20,707 bases of DNA from Thermoleophilia bacterium. GTDB taxonomy: Bacteria; Actinomycetota; Thermoleophilia; Gaiellales; Gaiellaceae. Shown here one piece after another: positions 6,520-20,707 of the stretch. Below the pieces are notes generated by a model that had not been told where the DNA came from, searched no databases, and saw only the letters and a program-made list of their open reading frames with translations. A program made the translations under genes and the position numbers. The stretch spans positions 1 through 20,707 of the forward strand of contig JAERMP010000033.1 of NCBI GenBank assembly GCA_016844515.1, read 5' to 3'. Numbering within the stretch: position 1 is the stretch's first letter; each line of letters starts with the position of its first letter.

Positions 6520-7164
6520 TCAGTACTGCAGGCCCTCGCCGCGGGCGATCACGCGGACTGTCTGGCACAGGATCCCAACGTCGTATCGCAACACTCGAGC
6601 GGAACTCCGCCTCCGACACATCTCGGCATAGGCGAGATCGAGCTCGGCGTACGCCGCCGGCTCCGTGACGCCCTTCTGCACCTGAGCCGGCCCCGTCCAG
6701 CCCGCGACGATCTGATTTCGGTACGTGAAGCCCTTCGCGACCTGCATCTCGACCATCGAGGGTGGCCACGGCCGCGGGCCAACCAGGCTCATGTCACCCC
6801 GGAGCACGTTGAAGAGCTGAGGGAGCTCGTCGAGGTACCAGGGCTTGAGAACGCGTCGCCCCGCCCAGGTCAAGTTGGCAGGATCGGCCTCGAGAAGTCG
6901 CGCGTGGGCTTCCGCTCCCTCGGCGCGATCGAGCACCTCACGGCGCAGCGTCCGGAACTTGAGGAGGTCGAACTCGCGGCCTCGAGAGATGCGGCGCTCC
7001 CGGTAGAGCCACGGCCCGCGGTCGCGAGGGCGAAACGCCATATCGACGGTGATCGCCACGCACACGACCGCAAACACCGGCGCGAGCACGAGTGCCAAGA
7101 CGACAGCCACGCCTTTGTCGAGCGCGCGTTTCGACACGGGGTAGGGAACGAGCTCCGAGTTCAT
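6520..7164 (-). CDS. Polyprenyl-phosphate sugar-phosphate transferase (bacterial sugar transferase family)
   Basis: This 214-residue, PglC-like short form starts glycan assembly by moving a sugar-1-phosphate from a nucleotide sugar to undecaprenyl phosphate on the inner membrane face. One hydrophobic segment lies at about 17-42 (VAVVLALVLAPVFAVVCVAI), followed by FDLLKFRTL. Then comes the diagnostic YLDELPQLFNVLRGDMSLVGPRPW, in which the Asp-Glu of DELPQ is the catalytic pair. The long form's four extra N-terminal helices are absent. I start at ATG 7164 because the core begins right there; the open frame continues upstream into the structured intergenic element but has no homology. It is the first gene of the minus-strand operon, so its promoter must lie in or near the element at 7195-7360. 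Confidence 0.93.
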   Translation of the reverse strand: MNSELVPYPVSKRALDKGVAVVLALVLAPVFAVVCVAITVDMAFRPRDRGPWLYRERRISRGREFDLLKFRTLRREVLDRAEGAEAHARLLEADPANLTWAGRRVLKPWYLDELPQLFNVLRGDMSLVGPRPWPPSMVEMQVAKGFTYRNQIVAGWTGPAQVQKGVTEPAAYAELDLAYAEMCRRRSSARVLRYDVGILCQTVRVIARGEGLQY

Positions 7165-7194
7165 GCCGAAGTGATTCTCTCTCCCTCGCGGCGC

Positions 7195-7360
7195 TAGTGC
7201 TTCGTCTCGGAAGTCCCTTGATGCTCCGGCGCGCGAAAAGCAAGCCAGGCTAGGACGCAGGGAGCGCCCGTATTGGTGAATACGGGCGCGACCGAGGACG
7301 ACGCCTGGCGCCGCTTTGCAGCCGCCCGGAGCGCAAGACGACTTTCGGGACGAAGCACTA
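7195..7360 (+). ncRNA. Candidate structured RNA element, copy 1
   Basis: The arms 7195-7215 and 7340-7360 form a 21-bp stem with no mismatch and two G-U pairs. Nested inside are 7223-7229 with 7326-7332 (GCTCCGG/CCGGAGC), 7237-7241 with 7313-7317 (AAAGC/GCTTT), 7244-7250 with 7303-7309 (GCCAGGC/GCCTGGC), and a terminal 11-bp hairpin 7264-7274/7279-7289 with a GGTG loop. Between the last two helices is an internal loop with strands TAGGACGCAGGGAG (7251-7264) and CGACCGAGGACGAC (7289-7302). Both strands occur identically in copy 2. The G-U pairs would be A-C mismatches on the other strand, so the RNA sense is plus. It fills the gap between divergent genes. I do not recognise it as a known family. 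Confidence 0.75.
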
Positions 7361-7364
7361 AGGT
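7359..7364 (+). promoter_or_regulatory. -10-like box TAAGGT of a leaderless-type promoter
   Basis: TAAGGT fits TAnnnT and is followed by 6 nt and then the ATG at 7371, so transcription could begin at the start codon itself. There is no Shine-Dalgarno before that ATG. The box begins in the last two bases of the structured element. No clear -35 hexamer is seen. Confidence 0.4.
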
Positions 7365-7370
7365 GCGCCC

Positions 7371-8666
7371 ATGTCGGAGTCCGGCACCGAGCACCCTGCG
7401 GTGGGCATAGGGCGGGAGAGACAGTTCGACGTATACGTCGGGGGCGCGCGCGGTGCGTACCCGCGCGTTCCCGTCTCCTTCGATCGACTCGAGCAGCGTG
7501 CACGCAAGGCGATGACGCCGGAGGGATACGCCTACATCGCGGGCGGCGCGGGTGCCGAAGAGACGATCCGAGAGAACCGCGCCGCGTTCGAGCGCTGGCG
7601 CATCGTGCCGCGCATGCTTCGCGACGTCTCGGTGCGAGACACGGCCGTGAACGTGCTCGGCACGCCGATGTCGAGCCCGTTCGCTCTGTGCCCGATCGGC
7701 GTGCTCGAGATGGCACATCGAGACGCCGACGTAGCGGTGGCGCGAGCCGCTGCCGCAGAGGGGATCCCGTTCATCTTCTCCAACCAGGCCTCCCGCCCGA
7801 TGGAAGAGACGGCGCGTGCGATGGGAGATGCGCCGCGCTGGTTCCAGCTCTACTGGAGCACTTCGAACGAACTCGTCGCCAGCTTCGTGTCTCGCGCCGA
7901 GAAGTGTGGCTGCTCGGCGATCGTGCTTACGCTCGACACGACGATGCTCGGCTGGCGTGTGCGCGACCTCGATCTCGCCTACCTCCCGTTTCTGCGCGGG
8001 AGGGGGATCGCCCAGTACACGAGCGACCCGGTGTTCCTCGACGCCCTGCAGGAGACACTGCGACAGTCGCCGCCGCCAGGGGGTCGCATCACGCTCGCAG
8101 CGATCGCGTCGTTGTGGGAGCTCGCTGGGTCACACCCGGGCTCACGAGTAGCGAACCTCCGTTCCGGGCTCGCGAGGGCCGCAGTCCGTCGCTTCATCGA
8201 GACATACTCGCGACCGTCGCTCTCATGGAAGGATCTCGCGTTTCTCCGCGAGCGCACACGGCTTCCGATCCTGCTCAAGGGGATCCTCCACCCCGCGGAC
8301 GCGGTGGCAGCGATCGAGCACGGCATGGACGGGATCATCGTGTCGAACCACGGCGGGCGCCAGGTCGACGGCGCAATCGGGACGATGGATGCGCTCTCGG
8401 CGATCGCCGACGTCGTCGCGGGCCGCGTGCCTGTCCTCCTAGACAGCGGGGTCCGCTCGGGCGCCGACGTGTTCCGCGCGCTCGCGCTCGGCGCAACTGT
8501 CGTCGGGCTCGGGCGTCCATACGTTTGGGGCCTCGCCGCCGGCGGCGAGGAGGGCGTCCGAGAGGTGATTCGCAACCTCCGCGCCGACTTCGATCTCACG
8601 CTGGGGCTCGCGGGCTGCGCGTCGGTGAGCGAGATCGGGCGCCACTCGATCCAGCCCGCGAACTGA
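7371..8666 (+). CDS. FMN-dependent alpha-hydroxy-acid oxidase / lactate 2-monooxygenase type
   Basis: This 431-residue TIM-barrel flavoenzyme belongs to the glycolate oxidase/lactate dehydrogenase family. By alignment to family motifs the active site is complete: Y55 in [12 protein letters not shown]161 in QLYW, D189 and R196 in [14 protein letters not shown], and H327 with R330 in SNHGGRQ. FMN phosphate contacts are in DSGVRSG and GLGRPY. It oxidises an L-2-hydroxy acid to the keto acid with O2 or another acceptor, or decarboxylates as lactate 2-monooxygenase does. Its extended N-terminus (about 35 residues before the core) and overall motif spacing resemble the monooxygenase branch. It is cytoplasmic, with no signal peptide. 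It is likely co-transcribed with the HAD gene 7 nt downstream, and it sits directly after the structured element. Substrate is not determined by sequence. Confidence 0.92.
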
Positions 8667-16197: not shown

Positions 16198-16995
16198 CTA
16201 CTTCAAGACCGGAACTCGTGTGAACGGGAGCCACTTCTTCTGGAGCCGAGTGAGCGTCCCGTTTGCACGCAACGTCCCGATCGCCTTGTCGAGGAAGGGC
16301 TTGAACGTGCTCCCCTTCTCCATCACCGCGCCGTAGAACTCGTTCGTGATGATCTGCCCCGCGACGCCGCCGTAGGCGCCCTTTTTCTTGTTGCTCTGCG
16401 AGACGACGATCGGCACGTCGAGGATCAGCGCGTCGCAACGCCCAGCCTCGACCGCGTCGAAGGCGGCCGTCGAGGATGCCGAGTAGACCAGCGGCTTCTT
16501 CGCCGGGCGCAGCTTGTGCTGGATGTAGCTGAGGCCAGTCGTGTCTTTCTGCGCACAGGTCTGGAGGCTCTTGAGGTCGGCGATGCGCGTGGGCTTGGCG
16601 AGGCCCTTGCGGATGAGAACGCCTTGGTTCGCGTCGAAGTAGGGCGTAGAGAAGCCGACGACCTTCTTCCGCGCTGCCGTGATGGTGACCTCCTCGAAGG
16701 CGAAGTCGTACTTCTTCGGCGCGGGCGAGAAGAGGCCGCCGAAGGGCGCGCGCAGCAACTCGACCTTCGGGATCTTCAACTGCTTCGCGATCGCCAGCGA
16801 GAGCTCGTACTCGAAACCGGACGGGTTCTTGAGGGTCGTCCCCGACGCCCTTCCGTTCCAGAAGCCCGGTGCCGGCAAGTCGAAGCCGACAATGAGCTTC
16901 CCCGGCTCCTTCGTTGGAGGCGCGCTCTGCGCCGAGGCGGTGACGGCGACGACGGCGCTAGCGCCGAGCGCGGCCGCGATCACTGTCCATTTCAC
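16198..16995 (-). CDS. Extracellular solute-binding protein, family 3 (amino-acid type)
   Basis: This 265-residue protein has a Sec signal peptide (WTVIAAALGASAVVAVTASA, cleavage about residue 22) and the family 3 fold. GFEYELSLAIAKQL, DFAFEEVTITAARKKVVGFSTPYF with the ligand-clamping Arg, and DALILDVPI with the Asp that usually binds the alpha-amino group are all present. It captures the ligand outside the membrane and delivers it to the permease. There is no lipobox Cys, unlike most monoderm binding proteins. Two Cys (in LQTCAQ and AGRCDA) could form a disulfide. The GTG 16995 start has GGAGGG 5 nt upstream. It is the first gene of the transporter operon, and a TAGATT (17034-17029) upstream is a weak -10 candidate. 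Confidence 0.93.
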   Translation of the reverse strand: MKWTVIAAALGASAVVAVTASAQSAPPTKEPGKLIVGFDLPAPGFWNGRASGTTLKNPSGFEYELSLAIAKQLKIPKVELLRAPFGGLFSPAPKKYDFAFEEVTITAARKKVVGFSTPYFDANQGVLIRKGLAKPTRIADLKSLQTCAQKDTTGLSYIQHKLRPAKKPLVYSASSTAAFDAVEAGRCDALILDVPIVVSQSNKKKGAYGGVAGQIITNEFYGAVMEKGSTFKPFLDKAIGTLRANGTLTRLQKKWLPFTRVPVLK

Positions 16996-17101
16996 GACAT
17001 CCCTCCTTGTGGGTGATCCGAAAGCCCGAATCTACCGCGCCGACGCCGCACCTGCAGGGAGGCCGATCGCCGGGGTGGACGACGAGTCCCTCGGCGCGGT
17101 C

Positions 17102-17107
17102 TATCGT
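17102..17107 (+). promoter_or_regulatory. -10-like box TATCGT of a leaderless-type promoter for the GroES gene
   Basis: TATCGT fits TAnnnT and lies 6 nt before GTG 17114, the same spacing as at 7371 and 10695. No CIRCE inverted repeat is visible between 16996 and 17113, so there is no sign of HrcA control. Confidence 0.35.
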
Positions 17108-17113
17108 AAGGGG

Positions 17114-17410
17114 GTGATCGAAGAGTCGAGAAGCGTGGACATCACTCTCGAGCCGCTCGACGAGTTCGTCGTCATCCAGCCCGTCTCGGACGAGACGGAG
17201 ACGCGCTCGGGCCTCATCCTCCCGGCATCGGCGGCTGCGGCCGTCGTGTGTCGAACGGGAATCGTCACCGCAATTGGAAGCGACGTGACAGGCGTGGATG
17301 CGGGCGACAAGGTGCTCTACCCCGGCGACGCCGGCTACGAGGTCCGGCTCGGTGGAATCGAGGTGCGAGTGCTGAAGCGCGAAGACCTCATCGCCCGAAT
17401 CCACGACTAG
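17114..17410 (+). CDS. groES: GroES-like co-chaperonin
   Basis: This 98-residue protein of GroES size has PLDEFVVIQPVSDETETRSGLILPASA, where TRSGLILP corresponds to the mobile loop that docks on GroEL (hydrophobic LIL in place of IVL). It then has GIVTAIGSDVTGVDAGDKVLYPGDAGYEVRLGGIEVRVLKREDLIARI, matching the core barrel and C-terminal strand. It should cap a GroEL ring. No groEL follows it, so the partner is elsewhere. I chose GTG 17114 because of the leaderless-type box 6 nt before it; GTG 17135 (VDITLEP) would trim seven residues that are not needed for the fold. The open frame runs much further upstream, but that part is antisense to the binding-protein gene. Its stop codon lies inside the left arm of structured element copy 2. 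Confidence 0.85.
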   Translation: MIEESRSVDITLEPLDEFVVIQPVSDETETRSGLILPASAAAAVVCRTGIVTAIGSDVTGVDAGDKVLYPGDAGYEVRLGGIEVRVLKREDLIARIHD

Positions 17411-17576
17411 TACACGCGTCCGTAAGTTCGGTCGTGGTTGGCGGTTCCCAGACCGAGCAGTCCTAGGACGCAGGGAGTCCCGATACCTGTTGGTATCGGG
17501 CCGACCGAGGACGACGGAATGCGACGTGTCTGGGGGCCCCCGGGCACATCTCTGTACTTGCGGACGCGTGTACTAG
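17407..17576 (+). ncRNA. Candidate structured RNA element, copy 2
   Basis: The arms 17407-17427 and 17556-17576 form a 21-bp stem with one G-U pair. Inside, 17443-17453 pairs with 17528-17538 (11 bp, two G-U). Then 17457-17463 pairs with 17516-17522 (7 positions, one G-A mismatch). The terminal hairpin is CCCGATACC/GGTATCGGG (17479-17487/17492-17500) with loop TGTT. The internal loop strands TAGGACGCAGGGAG (17464-17477) and CGACCGAGGACGAC (17502-17515) are identical to copy 1, while all stems differ in sequence. The element begins within the groES stop codon and ends in the -10-like box of the next gene. All G-U pairs are consistent with the plus strand. Confidence 0.75.
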
Positions 17577-17586: not shown

Positions 17587-17796
17587 ATGCTCGCCTATAC
17601 GTCCGGGACGCTCCTCGCCGTCGCGGCGCTCGCGGCGTGGATCTTCGTATGGTTGATCGTCGCCGTGAGGGTCCTGCGTCGTCACGATCTTGGAGTCGGA
17701 GGGAAGGTGCTCTGGCTCGTCGCCATCCTCGTCGTCCCGGTCCTCGGGCTCTTCATCTACTTCATCTGGGACGCGTCGCGACCGAGGTCGTCGTAG
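17587..17796 (+). CDS. Small two-helix membrane protein, PLDc_N-like
   Basis: This 69-residue protein has two hydrophobic helices, about 4-28 (TSGTLLAVAALAAWIFVWLIVAVRVL) and 38-60. The second (VLWLVAILVVPVLGLFIYFIWD) has the W-x-(hydrophobic)-PVLG-x-x-x-Y pattern of the PLDc_N domain, which is the membrane anchor found at the N-terminus of cardiolipin synthases and as free small proteins. There is no phospholipase catalytic domain, so it is the free form, whose role is not known. The start is ATG 17587; GTG 17584 just before it is in frame and possible. It lies directly after RNA element copy 2 and is followed by a strong hairpin. Confidence 0.75.
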   Translation: MLAYTSGTLLAVAALAAWIFVWLIVAVRVLRRHDLGVGGKVLWLVAILVVPVLGLFIYFIWDASRPRSS

Positions 17797-18080: not shown

Positions 18081-18171
18081 CGGAGAAGGAGGGATTCGAA
18101 CCCTCGAGGCAGGGATTTCCCCACCTAACGCCTTAGCAGGGCGCCGCCTTCAGCCACTCGGCCACTTCTCC
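18081..18171 (-). tRNA. tRNA-Ser (GCT)
   Basis: The acceptor stem GGAGAAG/CTTCTCC, discriminator G, T-arm GGTTCGAATCC and a long class II variable arm are all present. The anticodon loop CTGCTAA gives anticodon GCT, which reads AGC/AGU serine codons. CCA is not encoded. Length is 91 nt. Confidence 0.96.
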
Positions 18172-18254: not shown

Positions 18255-18341
18255 GGAGGGGTGCCGGAGCGGTCGAACGGGGCGGTCTCGAAAACCGTTA
18301 GGCGTGCAAGCGCCTCCAGGGTTCAAATCCCTGCCCCTCCG
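18255..18341 (+). tRNA. tRNA-Ser (CGA)
   Basis: The acceptor stem GGAGGGG/CCCCTCC, discriminator G, T-arm with GGTTCAAATCC and a long variable arm (GGCGTGCAAGCGCC) mark a class II tRNA. The anticodon loop CTCGAAA gives anticodon CGA, which reads UCG. CCA is not encoded. Length is 87 nt. Confidence 0.96.
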
Positions 18342-18362: not shown

Positions 18363-20390
18363 CTAGCCAGCAACGCGGCGCAGCGGAACGACAGTGGCGC
18401 TCGAGGCCGGCTCAGGCTCCCATGCGCTGTGCAGGGCTCGAGCGGATGGAACGATGTCCTGACCGGGAATCGGCCGTCCCAGCAGGTGGCCCTGCCCGAT
18501 GTCGCAACCCGCCGCACGGAGGCGAGAGAGATGCTCGGCCGTCTCGACACCTTCCGCGATGACCTTGAGCCCCAGACGGTGGGCGAGCTCGATGGTCGAG
18601 TTGACGATCGCCTCGTCGCTTCGATCCGAATCCATGCTGGAGACGAACGACCGGTCGATCTTGAGGACGTGCGCCGGCAGGTTCTTGAGCTGGCCGAGGG
18701 AGGAGTACCCGACGCCGAAGTCGTCGATCGCGATACGAACGCCCTGGTCGACGAGTCGCTCGAGCATCCTGCTCGCGCGCACGCGATCCGAGAGCAGAAC
18801 GCTCTCCGTGATCTCTAGCTCGAGCCAAGACGGGTCGACGCCATGCTCTGCAAGCGCGTGAGCGATCTCGTCCGGGAACCGCGCATCCGCCAGGTCGCGA
18901 CCTGAGACGTTGATGGCAAGGTCGAGCTCGAGCCCCGCGTTCCGCCAGCTGCGAACCTGCTGAAGCGATTGGTCGAGAACGTACCGGGTCAGATTGCGCA
19001 TGAGGCCACCTTGCTCGGCCGCAGCAAGGAAAGCTTCAGGACCGAGGAAGCCTCGCGTCGGGTGCCGCCAGCGGACGAGTGCCTCCGCGCCGCGCACGAC
19101 GCCGTGGCGAAGGTCGACCTGCGGCTGATAGTGCACGACGAGCTCGAACCGCTCGATGGCGCGGCGAAGCTCCCCGGTCATCGCGAGTCGGAGTGGCGAG
19201 CTGTCGTCGAGACCCGGCGAGAACACCTGGGGTGCGCCGAGGCGCTTGGCCGCGTACATGGCGATGTCGGCGCGTCGCAGGAGCTCGTCTCGCGACGTTC
19301 CGTGCGCGGGCGCCAGCGCGATGCCGATGCTCCCCTGCACCTCGAGGGAGACGCCGGCGATCTCGCATGGTTGACCAATGGCGTCTTGGAGCCGCCCTGC
19401 GAGAGCGAGAGCCGAGCGCTCATCGACAGCCCGCTCGCTCAGCACTCCGAACTCGTCGCCGCCGAGGCGCGCCACCAGCTCCTCCGGCCCGAGCACATAG
19501 TCGAGTCGCTTCGCGATCACTGTCAGGAGGTCGTTGCCGCAGTGGTGACCGAGAGCGTCGTTGACCTCCTTGAAGCGCTCGAGATCGATGAAGAAGACGG
19601 CGAGGTCGACGTCCTCCCCGTCTTCAGACGCGAGCGCGTCGTCGAGCCGAGAGCCGAACTGAGTGCGGTTCGCCAGCCCTGTCAGATCGTCGTGGAGCGC
19701 CTGGTGCGCGATCGTGTCCAGCTGACGATTCATGCGCCGCGTGACGCTCCGCATGATCGGGAAGAGGCAAAGCCACAGCGAGAGGAGCACGAGCTCGAGA
19801 ACCGTCGCCACCGTGATCGCTGCGCGCCGGGCGGCGCTCGCAATGGGGCCGTAGTCCTTGTCCACGACGAGGACGCCGCTCGAGCCGTCGCTCAGACGGA
19901 ACGGGGCATAGGCCCTCAAGATCCGCTTGGACGTTGCACCGACCTCGGTCGAGATCAGCTCGCTCGTGACCGTACCCCCGAGAGCCTCCGCGAGTGATGC
20001 CTGCGACGACACGCGTGTTCCTGCACGTTCCGCGTCAGTCGCATACACAAGACGTCCGTCCGGTGCGGCGACGGCGGAAGCAAGCGTCTCTTCGTCCAAC
20101 ACACGGGCCGTGAAGAGTCGGTCGAGCTCGTCCCGCCGAGCAGCCGAGAGCGGCACGCGTAGGTCCGACGGGTGCAGCTGGTCGACGACTGCTTGCGCGA
20201 CGATGCTGGCCTGGAGTGTCGCCGTATGCTCAGCCCGCCCGCGCTCGAAGTGGCGTATGTAGACGAGCAGGGTCGCGGCCCCGATGCCAAGTGTCAGCGC
20301 AGAGAAGAGCACCACGCGCAGGACGAGACGAGGCGGGCGCTGACCGAGCGTCGCAGCGCCGCCTGACGGCGCCGATACCGCCTTGCTCAC
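18363..20390 (-). CDS. Membrane-bound GGDEF-EAL cyclic-di-GMP enzyme
   Basis: This 675-residue sensor enzyme has a first membrane helix at about 23-45, an extracytoplasmic sensory region (46-185), a second helix at about 189-212, a GGDEF domain (about 228-392) and an EAL domain (about 402-655). The cyclase motif RLGGDEF (308-314) is intact. The phosphodiesterase motifs EALVRW (436-441), DDFGVGYSS (556-564), KIDRSF and AEGVET (612-617) are intact, so both synthesis and breakdown of c-di-GMP are possible. The inhibitory I-site RxxD is replaced by GPEE, so product inhibition is probably lost. The sensory region resembles double-Cache-like ligand sensors only in layout. The GTG 20390 start overlaps the stop of the upstream repeat protein (GTGA). 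Confidence 0.94.
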   Translation of the reverse strand: MSKAVSAPSGGAATLGQRPPRLVLRVVLFSALTLGIGAATLLVYIRHFERGRAEHTATLQASIVAQAVVDQLHPSDLRVPLSAARRDELDRLFTARVLDEETLASAVAAPDGRLVYATDAERAGTRVSSQASLAEALGGTVTSELISTEVGATSKRILRAYAPFRLSDGSSGVLVVDKDYGPIASAARRAAITVATVLELVLLSLWLCLFPIMRSVTRRMNRQLDTIAHQALHDDLTGLANRTQFGSRLDDALASEDGEDVDLAVFFIDLERFKEVNDALGHHCGNDLLTVIAKRLDYVLGPEELVARLGGDEFGVLSERAVDERSALALAGRLQDAIGQPCEIAGVSLEVQGSIGIALAPAHGTSRDELLRRADIAMYAAKRLGAPQVFSPGLDDSSPLRLAMTGELRRAIERFELVVHYQPQVDLRHGVVRGAEALVRWRHPTRGFLGPEAFLAAAEQGGLMRNLTRYVLDQSLQQVRSWRNAGLELDLAINVSGRDLADARFPDEIAHALAEHGVDPSWLELEITESVLLSDRVRASRMLERLVDQGVRIAIDDFGVGYSSLGQLKNLPAHVLKIDRSFVSSMDSDRSDEAIVNSTIELAHRLGLKVIAEGVETAEHLSRLRAAGCDIGQGHLLGRPIPGQDIVPSARALHSAWEPEPASSATVVPLRRVAG

Positions 20391-20707
20391 GGCTTCGTGC
20401 CCTTGTTCTGCCCTGGAGCGTTGCCCGAGTTGCCGGGAGCGTTGCCGGAGTTGCCGGGAGCATCGCCCGAGTTGCCGGGAGCATCGCCCGAGTTGCCCGG
20501 AGCATCGCCCGAGCTGCCGGGAGCATCGCCCGAGTTGCCCGGCGAGTCGTCGTCGTGACCGGGTGTATTGCCCGAGTTGCCGGGAGCATCGCCCGAGGTG
20601 CCCGGCGAGTCGTCGTCGTGACCGGGTGTATTGCCCGAGTTGCCGGGAGCGTCGCCCGAGTTGCCGGGAGCGTCGCCCGAGTTGCCGGGAGCGTCGCCCG
20701 AGTTGCC
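20387..20707 (-). CDS. Heptapeptide-repeat (GNSGDAP) low-complexity protein, N-terminus outside window
   Basis: The minus strand stays open from the window edge for 106 codons to a TGA at 20389-20387. The visible part is made of the repeat GNSGDAP and variants (GNSGNAP, GSSGDAP, GTSGDAP), twice broken by NTPGHDDDSPG, and ends GQNKGTKP. It lacks hydrophobic or aromatic residues, so it is a flexible, probably exported tail or linker; the functional domain, if any, lies outside the window. The reading frame is supported by the clean repeat and by the 4-nt stop-start overlap with the GGDEF-EAL gene, which implies an operon. Surface location is inferred from composition only. Alternative frames also stay open because the repeat unit is 21 nt. 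Confidence 0.75.
   Translation of the reverse strand, partial: GNSGDAPGNSGDAPGNSGDAPGNSGNTPGHDDDSPGTSGDAPGNSGNTPGHDDDSPGNSGDAPGSSGDAPGNSGDAPGNSGDAPGNSGNAPGNSGNAPGQNKGTKP
20412..20707. repeat. 21-bp tandem repeat with a nested 63-bp duplication
   Basis: A 21-bp unit (about TTGCCGGGAGCGTCGCCCGA on plus) repeats to the right edge and encodes the heptapeptide. The block with GTCGTCGTCGTGACC appears twice, 63 bp apart (three units), which shows a higher-order duplication. Copy number may vary among strains, and the array continues beyond the window. Confidence 0.9.

Follow-up and report, generated by a model that had tools for sequence, protein, structure and literature searches.

A dispersed family of MITE-like, non-autonomous elements of ~160 bp, probably mobilised by insertion sequences (IS), is represented by two copies in the window (the whole stretch of 20,707 nucleotides that was analysed). 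The mobility of these elements is well supported by sites occupied in one genome and empty in another, by duplication-like flanking repeats and by terminal repeats shared with IS5-family elements. The plus strand of the element is under selection to stay folded, and the folded strand likely acts as RNA, as judged from the pattern of pairing across the family.

Two hairpins and the family to which they belong

The two copies described in the original prediction are present at the places given there, and their sequence, fold and core match were confirmed (Table 1). Both are rod hairpins of ~160 nt, in which the arms and caps differ while the two 14-nt core strands are identical. The predicted RNA folds reach -112.7 kcal/mol for copy 1 (z -11.09) and -107.0 kcal/mol for copy 2 (z -9.70), with none of 200 shuffled sequences folding as well in either case, and copy 1 scores 88.0 bits with the covariance model. 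Copy 1 is located between divergent genes coding for a sugar transferase and an FMN-dependent dehydrogenase, and a sigma-70 consensus scan of positions 7100-7450 around it yielded no promoter. The supposition that the hairpins belong to no known RNA family was borne out, since neither copy matched any of 4227 Rfam families at E values of up to 1. A search of 12 loci at E up to 0.1 likewise gave nothing at the elements, the AsrC match in locus L060 falling outside the element. A literature search found no description of the element family, and among the nine publications containing at least one of four core strings none was on a bacterial repeat, judged by their titles. Elsewhere in the window, two tRNA genes with long variable arms (Rfam tRNA matches) are encoded on opposite strands at 18081-18171 (-) and 18255-18341 (+), while a 21-bp unit (about CCGGGAGCRTYGCCCGAGTTG) is repeated at least 12 times at 20354-20707, within reach of a long minus-strand frame, cut by the window end.

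Table 1. Coordinates of the two element copies, their parts and the adjacent genes in the window
Feature	Positions	Strand	Remarks
Copy 1 including flanks	7194..7361	+	CTAG 7194-7197, CTAA 7358-7361, body 7198-7357; from sequence, fold and covariance model
Copy 1 left arm	7198..7250	+	variable stem; outer part at the terminal inverted repeat position
Copy 1 conserved 5' core strand	7251..7264	+	TAGGACGCAGGGAG
Copy 1 capping hairpin	7265..7288	+	pairing kept, sequence free
Copy 1 conserved 3' core strand	7289..7302	+	CGACCGAGGACGAC (family form GACYGAGGACGMC)
Copy 1 right arm	7303..7357	+	
Sugar transferase, bacterial (PF02397), neighbour of copy 1	6520..7164	-	start codon 29 nt left of CTAG
FMN-dependent dehydrogenase (PF01070), neighbour of copy 1	7371..8666	+	start codon 9 nt right of CTAA
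Copy 2 including flanks	17407..17576	+	CTAG on both sides (17407-17410, 17573-17576), body 17411-17572
Copy 2 left arm	17411..17463	+	
Copy 2 conserved 5' core strand	17464..17477	+	TAGGACGCAGGGAG
Copy 2 capping hairpin	17478..17501	+	
Copy 2 conserved 3' core strand	17502..17515	+	CGACCGAGGACGAC
Copy 2 right arm	17516..17572	+	
Cpn10 (GroES-like) domain protein (PF00166), neighbour of copy 2	16679..17410	+	TAG stop within the left CTAG of copy 2
Small PLDc_N domain protein (PF13396), neighbour of copy 2	17587..17796	+	downstream of copy 2

Further homologs carrying the loop strands were recovered by exact-pattern, model and copy-count searches alike. Scanning the genome_contigs collection (84,980 species) with the exact core pattern GGACGCAGGGAG-N12-40-CGACCGAGGACGAC identified 50 places, all in records titled Actinomycetota, Actinobacteria, Actinomycetes, Thermoleophilia, Gaiellaceae or Solirubrobacteraceae and all in assemblies titled MAG. 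The same pattern had no match in viral contigs, and copy 1 as query had none among phages and plasmids. The inner 73 positions were built into a covariance model (R1), which at 1e-4, with at most 16 candidates scored per genome, matched in 149 of 299 genomes of the class to which genome G001, a record titled Thermoleophilia bacterium, belongs. In a sample of 396 genomes from the whole phylum it matched in 23, of which 15 were already among the class genomes. The family is seen so far only in Actinomycetota, chiefly in the class of G001. With a looser exact pattern, 101 copies were counted in G001 and 7-30 copies in each of 11 other genomes, while the reversed pattern, used as control, gave 0 copies in all 12. 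Although abundant in an actinobacterial class with few cultured members, the repeat has no entry in Rfam. For the comparisons below a set of 134 elements was used, derived from 150 of 156 model matches by removing duplicates and those with too little flanking sequence.

Some members depart from the usual arrangement. Three cores occur in tandem, ~110 nt apart, at L040:745-1036, and two-core tandems with the same spacing are found in G001 at 317869-318023 and 334251-334405. Five copies in identical orientation are located on a single contig at G277:C14:4658-15003. Loci L007 and L012 hold outlying members with arms that close poorly or are re-arranged, and the L012 core falls within a 1017-aa frame predicted for the other strand. 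At L201:2520-2570, half an element (the left arm) is joined to an IS1380-family transposase gene.

Covariation, folding strand and core

The compensatory change claimed for the two copies extends to the family. Among 47 inner sequences, all of which contain the exact core pattern, 14 of the 16 pairs show changes on both sides, paired cells amount to 87.4% compared to 65.6% in shuffled alignments, and the covariation score is 0.584 compared to 0.200 when shuffled and at most 0.137 for slid structures. None of 500 shuffles reached any of the five covariation measures.

That only the plus strand reads as RNA had been argued from the G-U pairs. For copy 1 alone this argument is weak (two G·T and no A·C pairs; its constrained MFE fold has three G-U pairs on either strand), but over the family it is decisive. 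When the arms of the 134 elements were aligned with each other using a scoring that treats G·T and A·C equally, plus-strand G·T and A·C pairs numbered 442 and 37, respectively (357:33 in the arms and 85:4 in the caps), with G·T more frequent in 122 elements, A·C in six and a tie in six. From the outermost nine positions inward along the arm the counts are 61:6, 108:5, 86:8, 68:6, 19:4 and 15:4, and by gene context they are 224:21 for antisense tandem, 50:6 for sense tandem, 65:2 for convergent and 45:4 for divergent settings. Given this excess of G·T in every gene context, it is the plus strand that folds, RNA being its most likely form. In addition, the plus fold is more stable than the minus fold in all 51 elements tested. 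Other mismatches number 376 in the arms and 18 in the caps. In four groups of closely similar copies, single changes private to one copy turned Watson-Crick pairs into 29 G·T, 11 A·C and 24 other mismatches, while 23 private double changes retained Watson-Crick pairing, which leaves room for template switching at the hairpin as a helper process. The cap loops are mostly triloops (79 of the 134 elements) and not tetraloops, as is usual in RNA. According to a modelling study, G-U pairs are strongly maintained in RNAs and G·T pairs weakly in single-stranded DNA (ssDNA) viruses (PMC6993869), which favours RNA over ssDNA as the folding molecule.

The core sequence AGGACGCAGGGAG is exact in 123 of the 134 collected members and in 68 of the 74 members from outside the exact-pattern loci, although its constancy is inflated by the collection, the first loci having been gathered by the exact core pattern and the remainder, including those 74, as top model matches. 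Among 117 elements read, the 3' strand conforms to GACYGAGGACGMC, where Y is C in 75, T in 39 and G in three, and M is A in 79 and C in 38. The C/T position lies opposite an invariant G, so that both forms are able to pair. The two strands had been described as a 14-nt loop; their identity in both copies holds, but they are better seen as a structured internal loop with G-C pairs of its own. According to the MFE folds of both copies and to RNAalifold, two tandem G·A steps (GGAC/GGAC and GGAG/CGAC) are enclosed by these G-C pairs, and the RNAalifold G-C steps across the core (14-64, 17-61, 21-58, 22-57 and 25-54) concur with the single folds. This pairing scheme is predicted from sequence and energy rules. 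Nothing was found here in favour of the suggestion that the loop is a ligand site, and we know of no hammerhead or other ribozyme core that fits it. An interior with RNA-grade covariation and a clear strand raises the question of whether a DNA transposon can depend on, or carry, a structured RNA.

Insertion sites, terminal repeats and gene context

The view of the original prediction that this is not a DNA repeat was not supported, although the two copies in the window are indeed far diverged. The elements are mobile repeats, dispersed over the genome, with sites that are occupied or empty, flanks that resemble duplications and terminal repeats shared with IS5-family insertion sequences. Three empty orthologous sites were found in total. 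An element in L041 occupies the junction designated B/C, where L035, L090, L091, L092, L095, L096 and L108 are empty; L035 in turn has an element at the A/B junction, which is absent in L090 and L041, and the site of the L028 element is empty in L088. Loci L043 and L081 hold an element at an identical site, with arms that are diverged but folding, indicating that copies can persist or that a site can be hit twice.

With the element ends set by the pairing of the first ten bases, identical flanking repeats of at least 4 nt occur at 27 of the 134 elements, compared to 11.1±3.1 when the right flanks were exchanged (maximum 21 in 300). Ten of these 27 are of other kinds than those containing CTA or TTA (e.g. 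AGCT, GGCC) and look like misplaced ends. Repeats of at least 4 nt with CTA or TTA (YTA) were found at 18 of the 134 elements, compared to 5.1±2.0 after exchange (maximum 14, with none of 1000 as high), and those of at least 5 nt at eight, compared to 1.6±1.2 (one of 1000 as high). The YTA repeats comprise CTAG (eight), CTTAG (five) and one each of CTAA, CTAAG, CCTAG, CTAC and CCTAGG. Exact duplications are thus present in a minority of the elements, and a first count with over-extended ends set by the MFE fold had shown no excess (eight vs 16 at 3 nt or more). The YTA-type duplications point to a staggered cut. A closing helix of at least six pairs is present in 133 of the 134 elements, and the traits of bacterial MITEs are found together here: a short length, closing terminal inverted repeats, many dispersed copies, target duplication and empty sites.

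Terminal sequences similar to those of the element were found in two kinds of IS. G001 contains a multicopy IS5-family element (NF033581, 242.6 bits, cut-off 140) with the end CTAG|CAGGCTGCTGAAAAA, and two of the four copies examined have identical 4-nt flanks (CTAG, TTAA). The ends of the G001 elements match the end of this IS over 14-20 nt, within one genome. Nine PF13340 matches occur in G165, where the two open pieces of one IS, L236, match the IS5-family model NF033580 with 141.7 and 109.1 bits (cut-off 110). The L236 ends are CTTAG|AACTCGAATCAGAATGA on one side and AACTCGAATCGAAATGA on the other, CTTAG is found on both sides in two of the three copies with both ends in view, and these ends are 95-96% identical over 22-25 nt to element ends from genomes other than G165. 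Beyond these 14-25 nt, IS and element differ and the interior matches neither IS, so that simple deletion from one or the other IS does not explain the element. The ends of two kinds of IS with one core further indicate that the core goes with at least two end types. MITEs are commonly viewed as IS remnants with an unimportant interior, whereas here the interior is constant and the ends change. Movement of the element by IS5-like enzymes would be an economical account of its ends and duplications.

Probing with PF13340 gave matches in four of 15 genomes, the IS in G165 being the only one with such ends, and with PF01609 the G001 IS was the only one with such ends among five genomes. G210, with 17 copies, had no PF01609 match. 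By eye, no transposase-bearing version with the core was seen among 22 half-core matches in 1.05 Mb of loci. Three other partners were considered and rejected. For IS1380 as the autonomous form, 20 loci of relatives of the L201 gene were examined, and arm matches below E 1e-4 as well as model matches below E 0.2 were absent from them. The Y1_Tnp domain (PF01797) of a RAYT/HUH partner is present in 26 of 99 genomes, with 0 matches in G001 and its 101 copies, while the reverse transcriptase domain PF00078 is absent in eight of 11 genomes with 7-21 copies and has 13 matches in G001.

Genes were called with a self-trained codon model, which missed the Cpn10 gene beside copy 2, and the context labels that follow therefore carry errors. 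Genes lie within 400 nt on both sides of 115 of the 134 elements, with 67 elements in antisense tandem, 20 in sense tandem, 16 in convergent and 12 in divergent settings; three of the remaining elements are inside predicted frames and 16 are without a close neighbour on a side. The bias of antisense over sense tandem settings (p 4e-7) persists after thinning at 75% identity (26 vs eight of 52 elements, p 0.003). Where the adjacent gene is antisense, the right end is located within 3 nt of its stop codon in 45 of 85 cases and the left end at its start codon in 26 of 84; where it is sense, the left end is at the stop codon in 20 of 38 cases and the right end at the start codon in none of 38. Sixteen elements span the entire distance from stop to start codon. 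A Shine-Dalgarno-like word at the right spacing is present in 19 of the 26 start-codon cases, compared to 3.5±1.7 when shuffled. The orientation counts and these words suggest that the element tends to lie antisense, with its end lent as a ribosome-binding site, and present a case of a mobile element end resembling an intercistronic ribosome-binding site. On one reading, the more stable plus-strand hairpin would hide the ribosome-binding site in the sense orientation. The predominance of antisense over sense copies is a poor fit to a plus-strand cis-regulatory leader.

Candidate mechanism, alternatives and related systems

The explanation that we consider probable is that of a MITE-like, non-autonomous element of ~160 bp moved in trans by an IS5-type transposase, with a core and rod acting as a protein-binding RNA of the plus strand. 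A resident transposase would act on the terminal repeats, the core and rod would function as plus-strand RNA, and the structured internal loop with its two tandem G·A steps would be the putative protein-binding site. The plus-strand fold and the core persist with different ends and in every context, which suggests that they are required by the element and not by any single neighbour. The bound protein would serve the element itself, through mobility or host tolerance, rather than a neighbouring gene. Antisense copies may be tolerated in operons because the messenger-strand hairpin would be weaker, with A·C in place of G·U, and the element end may supply a ribosome-binding site to an operon gene. 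The protein-binding role of the folding module and the steps leading from fold to effect are inferred. Speaking against the explanation are the predominance of antisense copies, the lack of a promoter in the sigma-70 scan, the triloop caps, the finding of two IS only with matching ends, the shortness of these matches, the minority of exact duplications and the private A·C and other mismatches. For ERIC, an effect of this MITE on transcripts that depends on its orientation is described (PMC2229807), which provides a precedent. A more far-reaching version, which is possible but doubtful, is that of a selfish RNA-bearing transposable unit, in which the folding core would be the true signature of the replicator, acting as RNA in its own movement or control, and the terminal repeats exchangeable adaptors for whichever IS5-type transposase the host carries.

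The strong covariation, the conserved core and plus-strand selection over the whole rod would also be expected of a host RNA, either a trans-acting small RNA or a regulatory one, that happens to have been spread within MITEs and that binds a ligand or protein for a host function through its core, and the site shared by L043 and L081, with diverged yet folding arms, would also fit. Copy numbers as high as 101 in a genome, the clustering of closely similar copies, the lack of a preferred sense placement (67 antisense and 20 sense tandem), a G·T:A·C ratio that is similar in every context and the presence/absence between genomes nonetheless make this explanation unlikely. Slightly less likely again is a fold in ssDNA, with the plus strand folding during transposition or replication and being read by a recombinase, as in REPINs, IS200/IS605 and attC. 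Selection on one strand, its independence of gene context and the short triloops (79 of 134) agree with this, while the absence of a Y1_Tnp match in G001, the staggered cut indicated by the YTA-type duplications and the reported weak maintenance of G·T pairs in ssDNA viruses (PMC6993869) speak against it.

Neutral upkeep of the hairpin, whereby template switching would keep the arms complementary and the strand bias would be mutational or derive from selection for a weaker messenger-strand hairpin, is improbable. It would account for double changes between Watson-Crick pairs, which are common even as private changes (23), and for the 376 mismatches beyond G·T and A·C in the arms, but not for the maintenance of a 14+14 core that is no palindrome (123 of 134, with the collection bias stated above), the counts in the caps (85 G·T, four A·C and 18 other mismatches) or a bias that is similar in all four gene settings. 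That the element is retroelement-like, or derives from a group II intron, and is copied via RNA is barely credible; the RNA-like fold and the 13 PF00078 matches in the genome with the most copies are set against eight of 11 genomes with 7-21 copies and no reverse transcriptase match, and against terminal repeats that match DDE insertion sequences.

Several known systems share features with the family. The MIRU of mycobacteria are likewise actinobacterial and located between the stop and start codons of co-directional genes, but differ from the new element in sequence, length, fold and tandem arrangement. The 6S RNA is also a rod with a large internal loop, whereas the new element has no Rfam match, its conserved part is the loop sequence and its copies are many. 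As in IS5-family MITEs, the ends and YTA-type repeats match IS5-family elements, here those in G001 and G165, but the match extends over only 14-25 nt, the interior matches neither IS and one interior is found with different ends. According to reviews of the ERIC/IRU, Correia/NEMIS and RUP MITEs (PMC10969869, PMC2229807), these are similarly 100-200 bp long with terminal inverted repeats and target duplication, their transcripts would form long hairpins and related IS mobilise them in trans. The new element differs from them in its sequence, its YTA-type repeats of 4-6 nt, the combination of one core with different ends, the diverged but covarying arms and the strand-specific pairing. Neither review text contains the word 'compensatory'. 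Dispersed units with hairpins predicted in ssDNA or mRNA are also described for REPINs/RAYT (PMC3116915), and the new element is set apart from these by the lack of Y1_Tnp in the copy-richest genome, by a build other than the REP doublet and by its target-duplication-like repeats.
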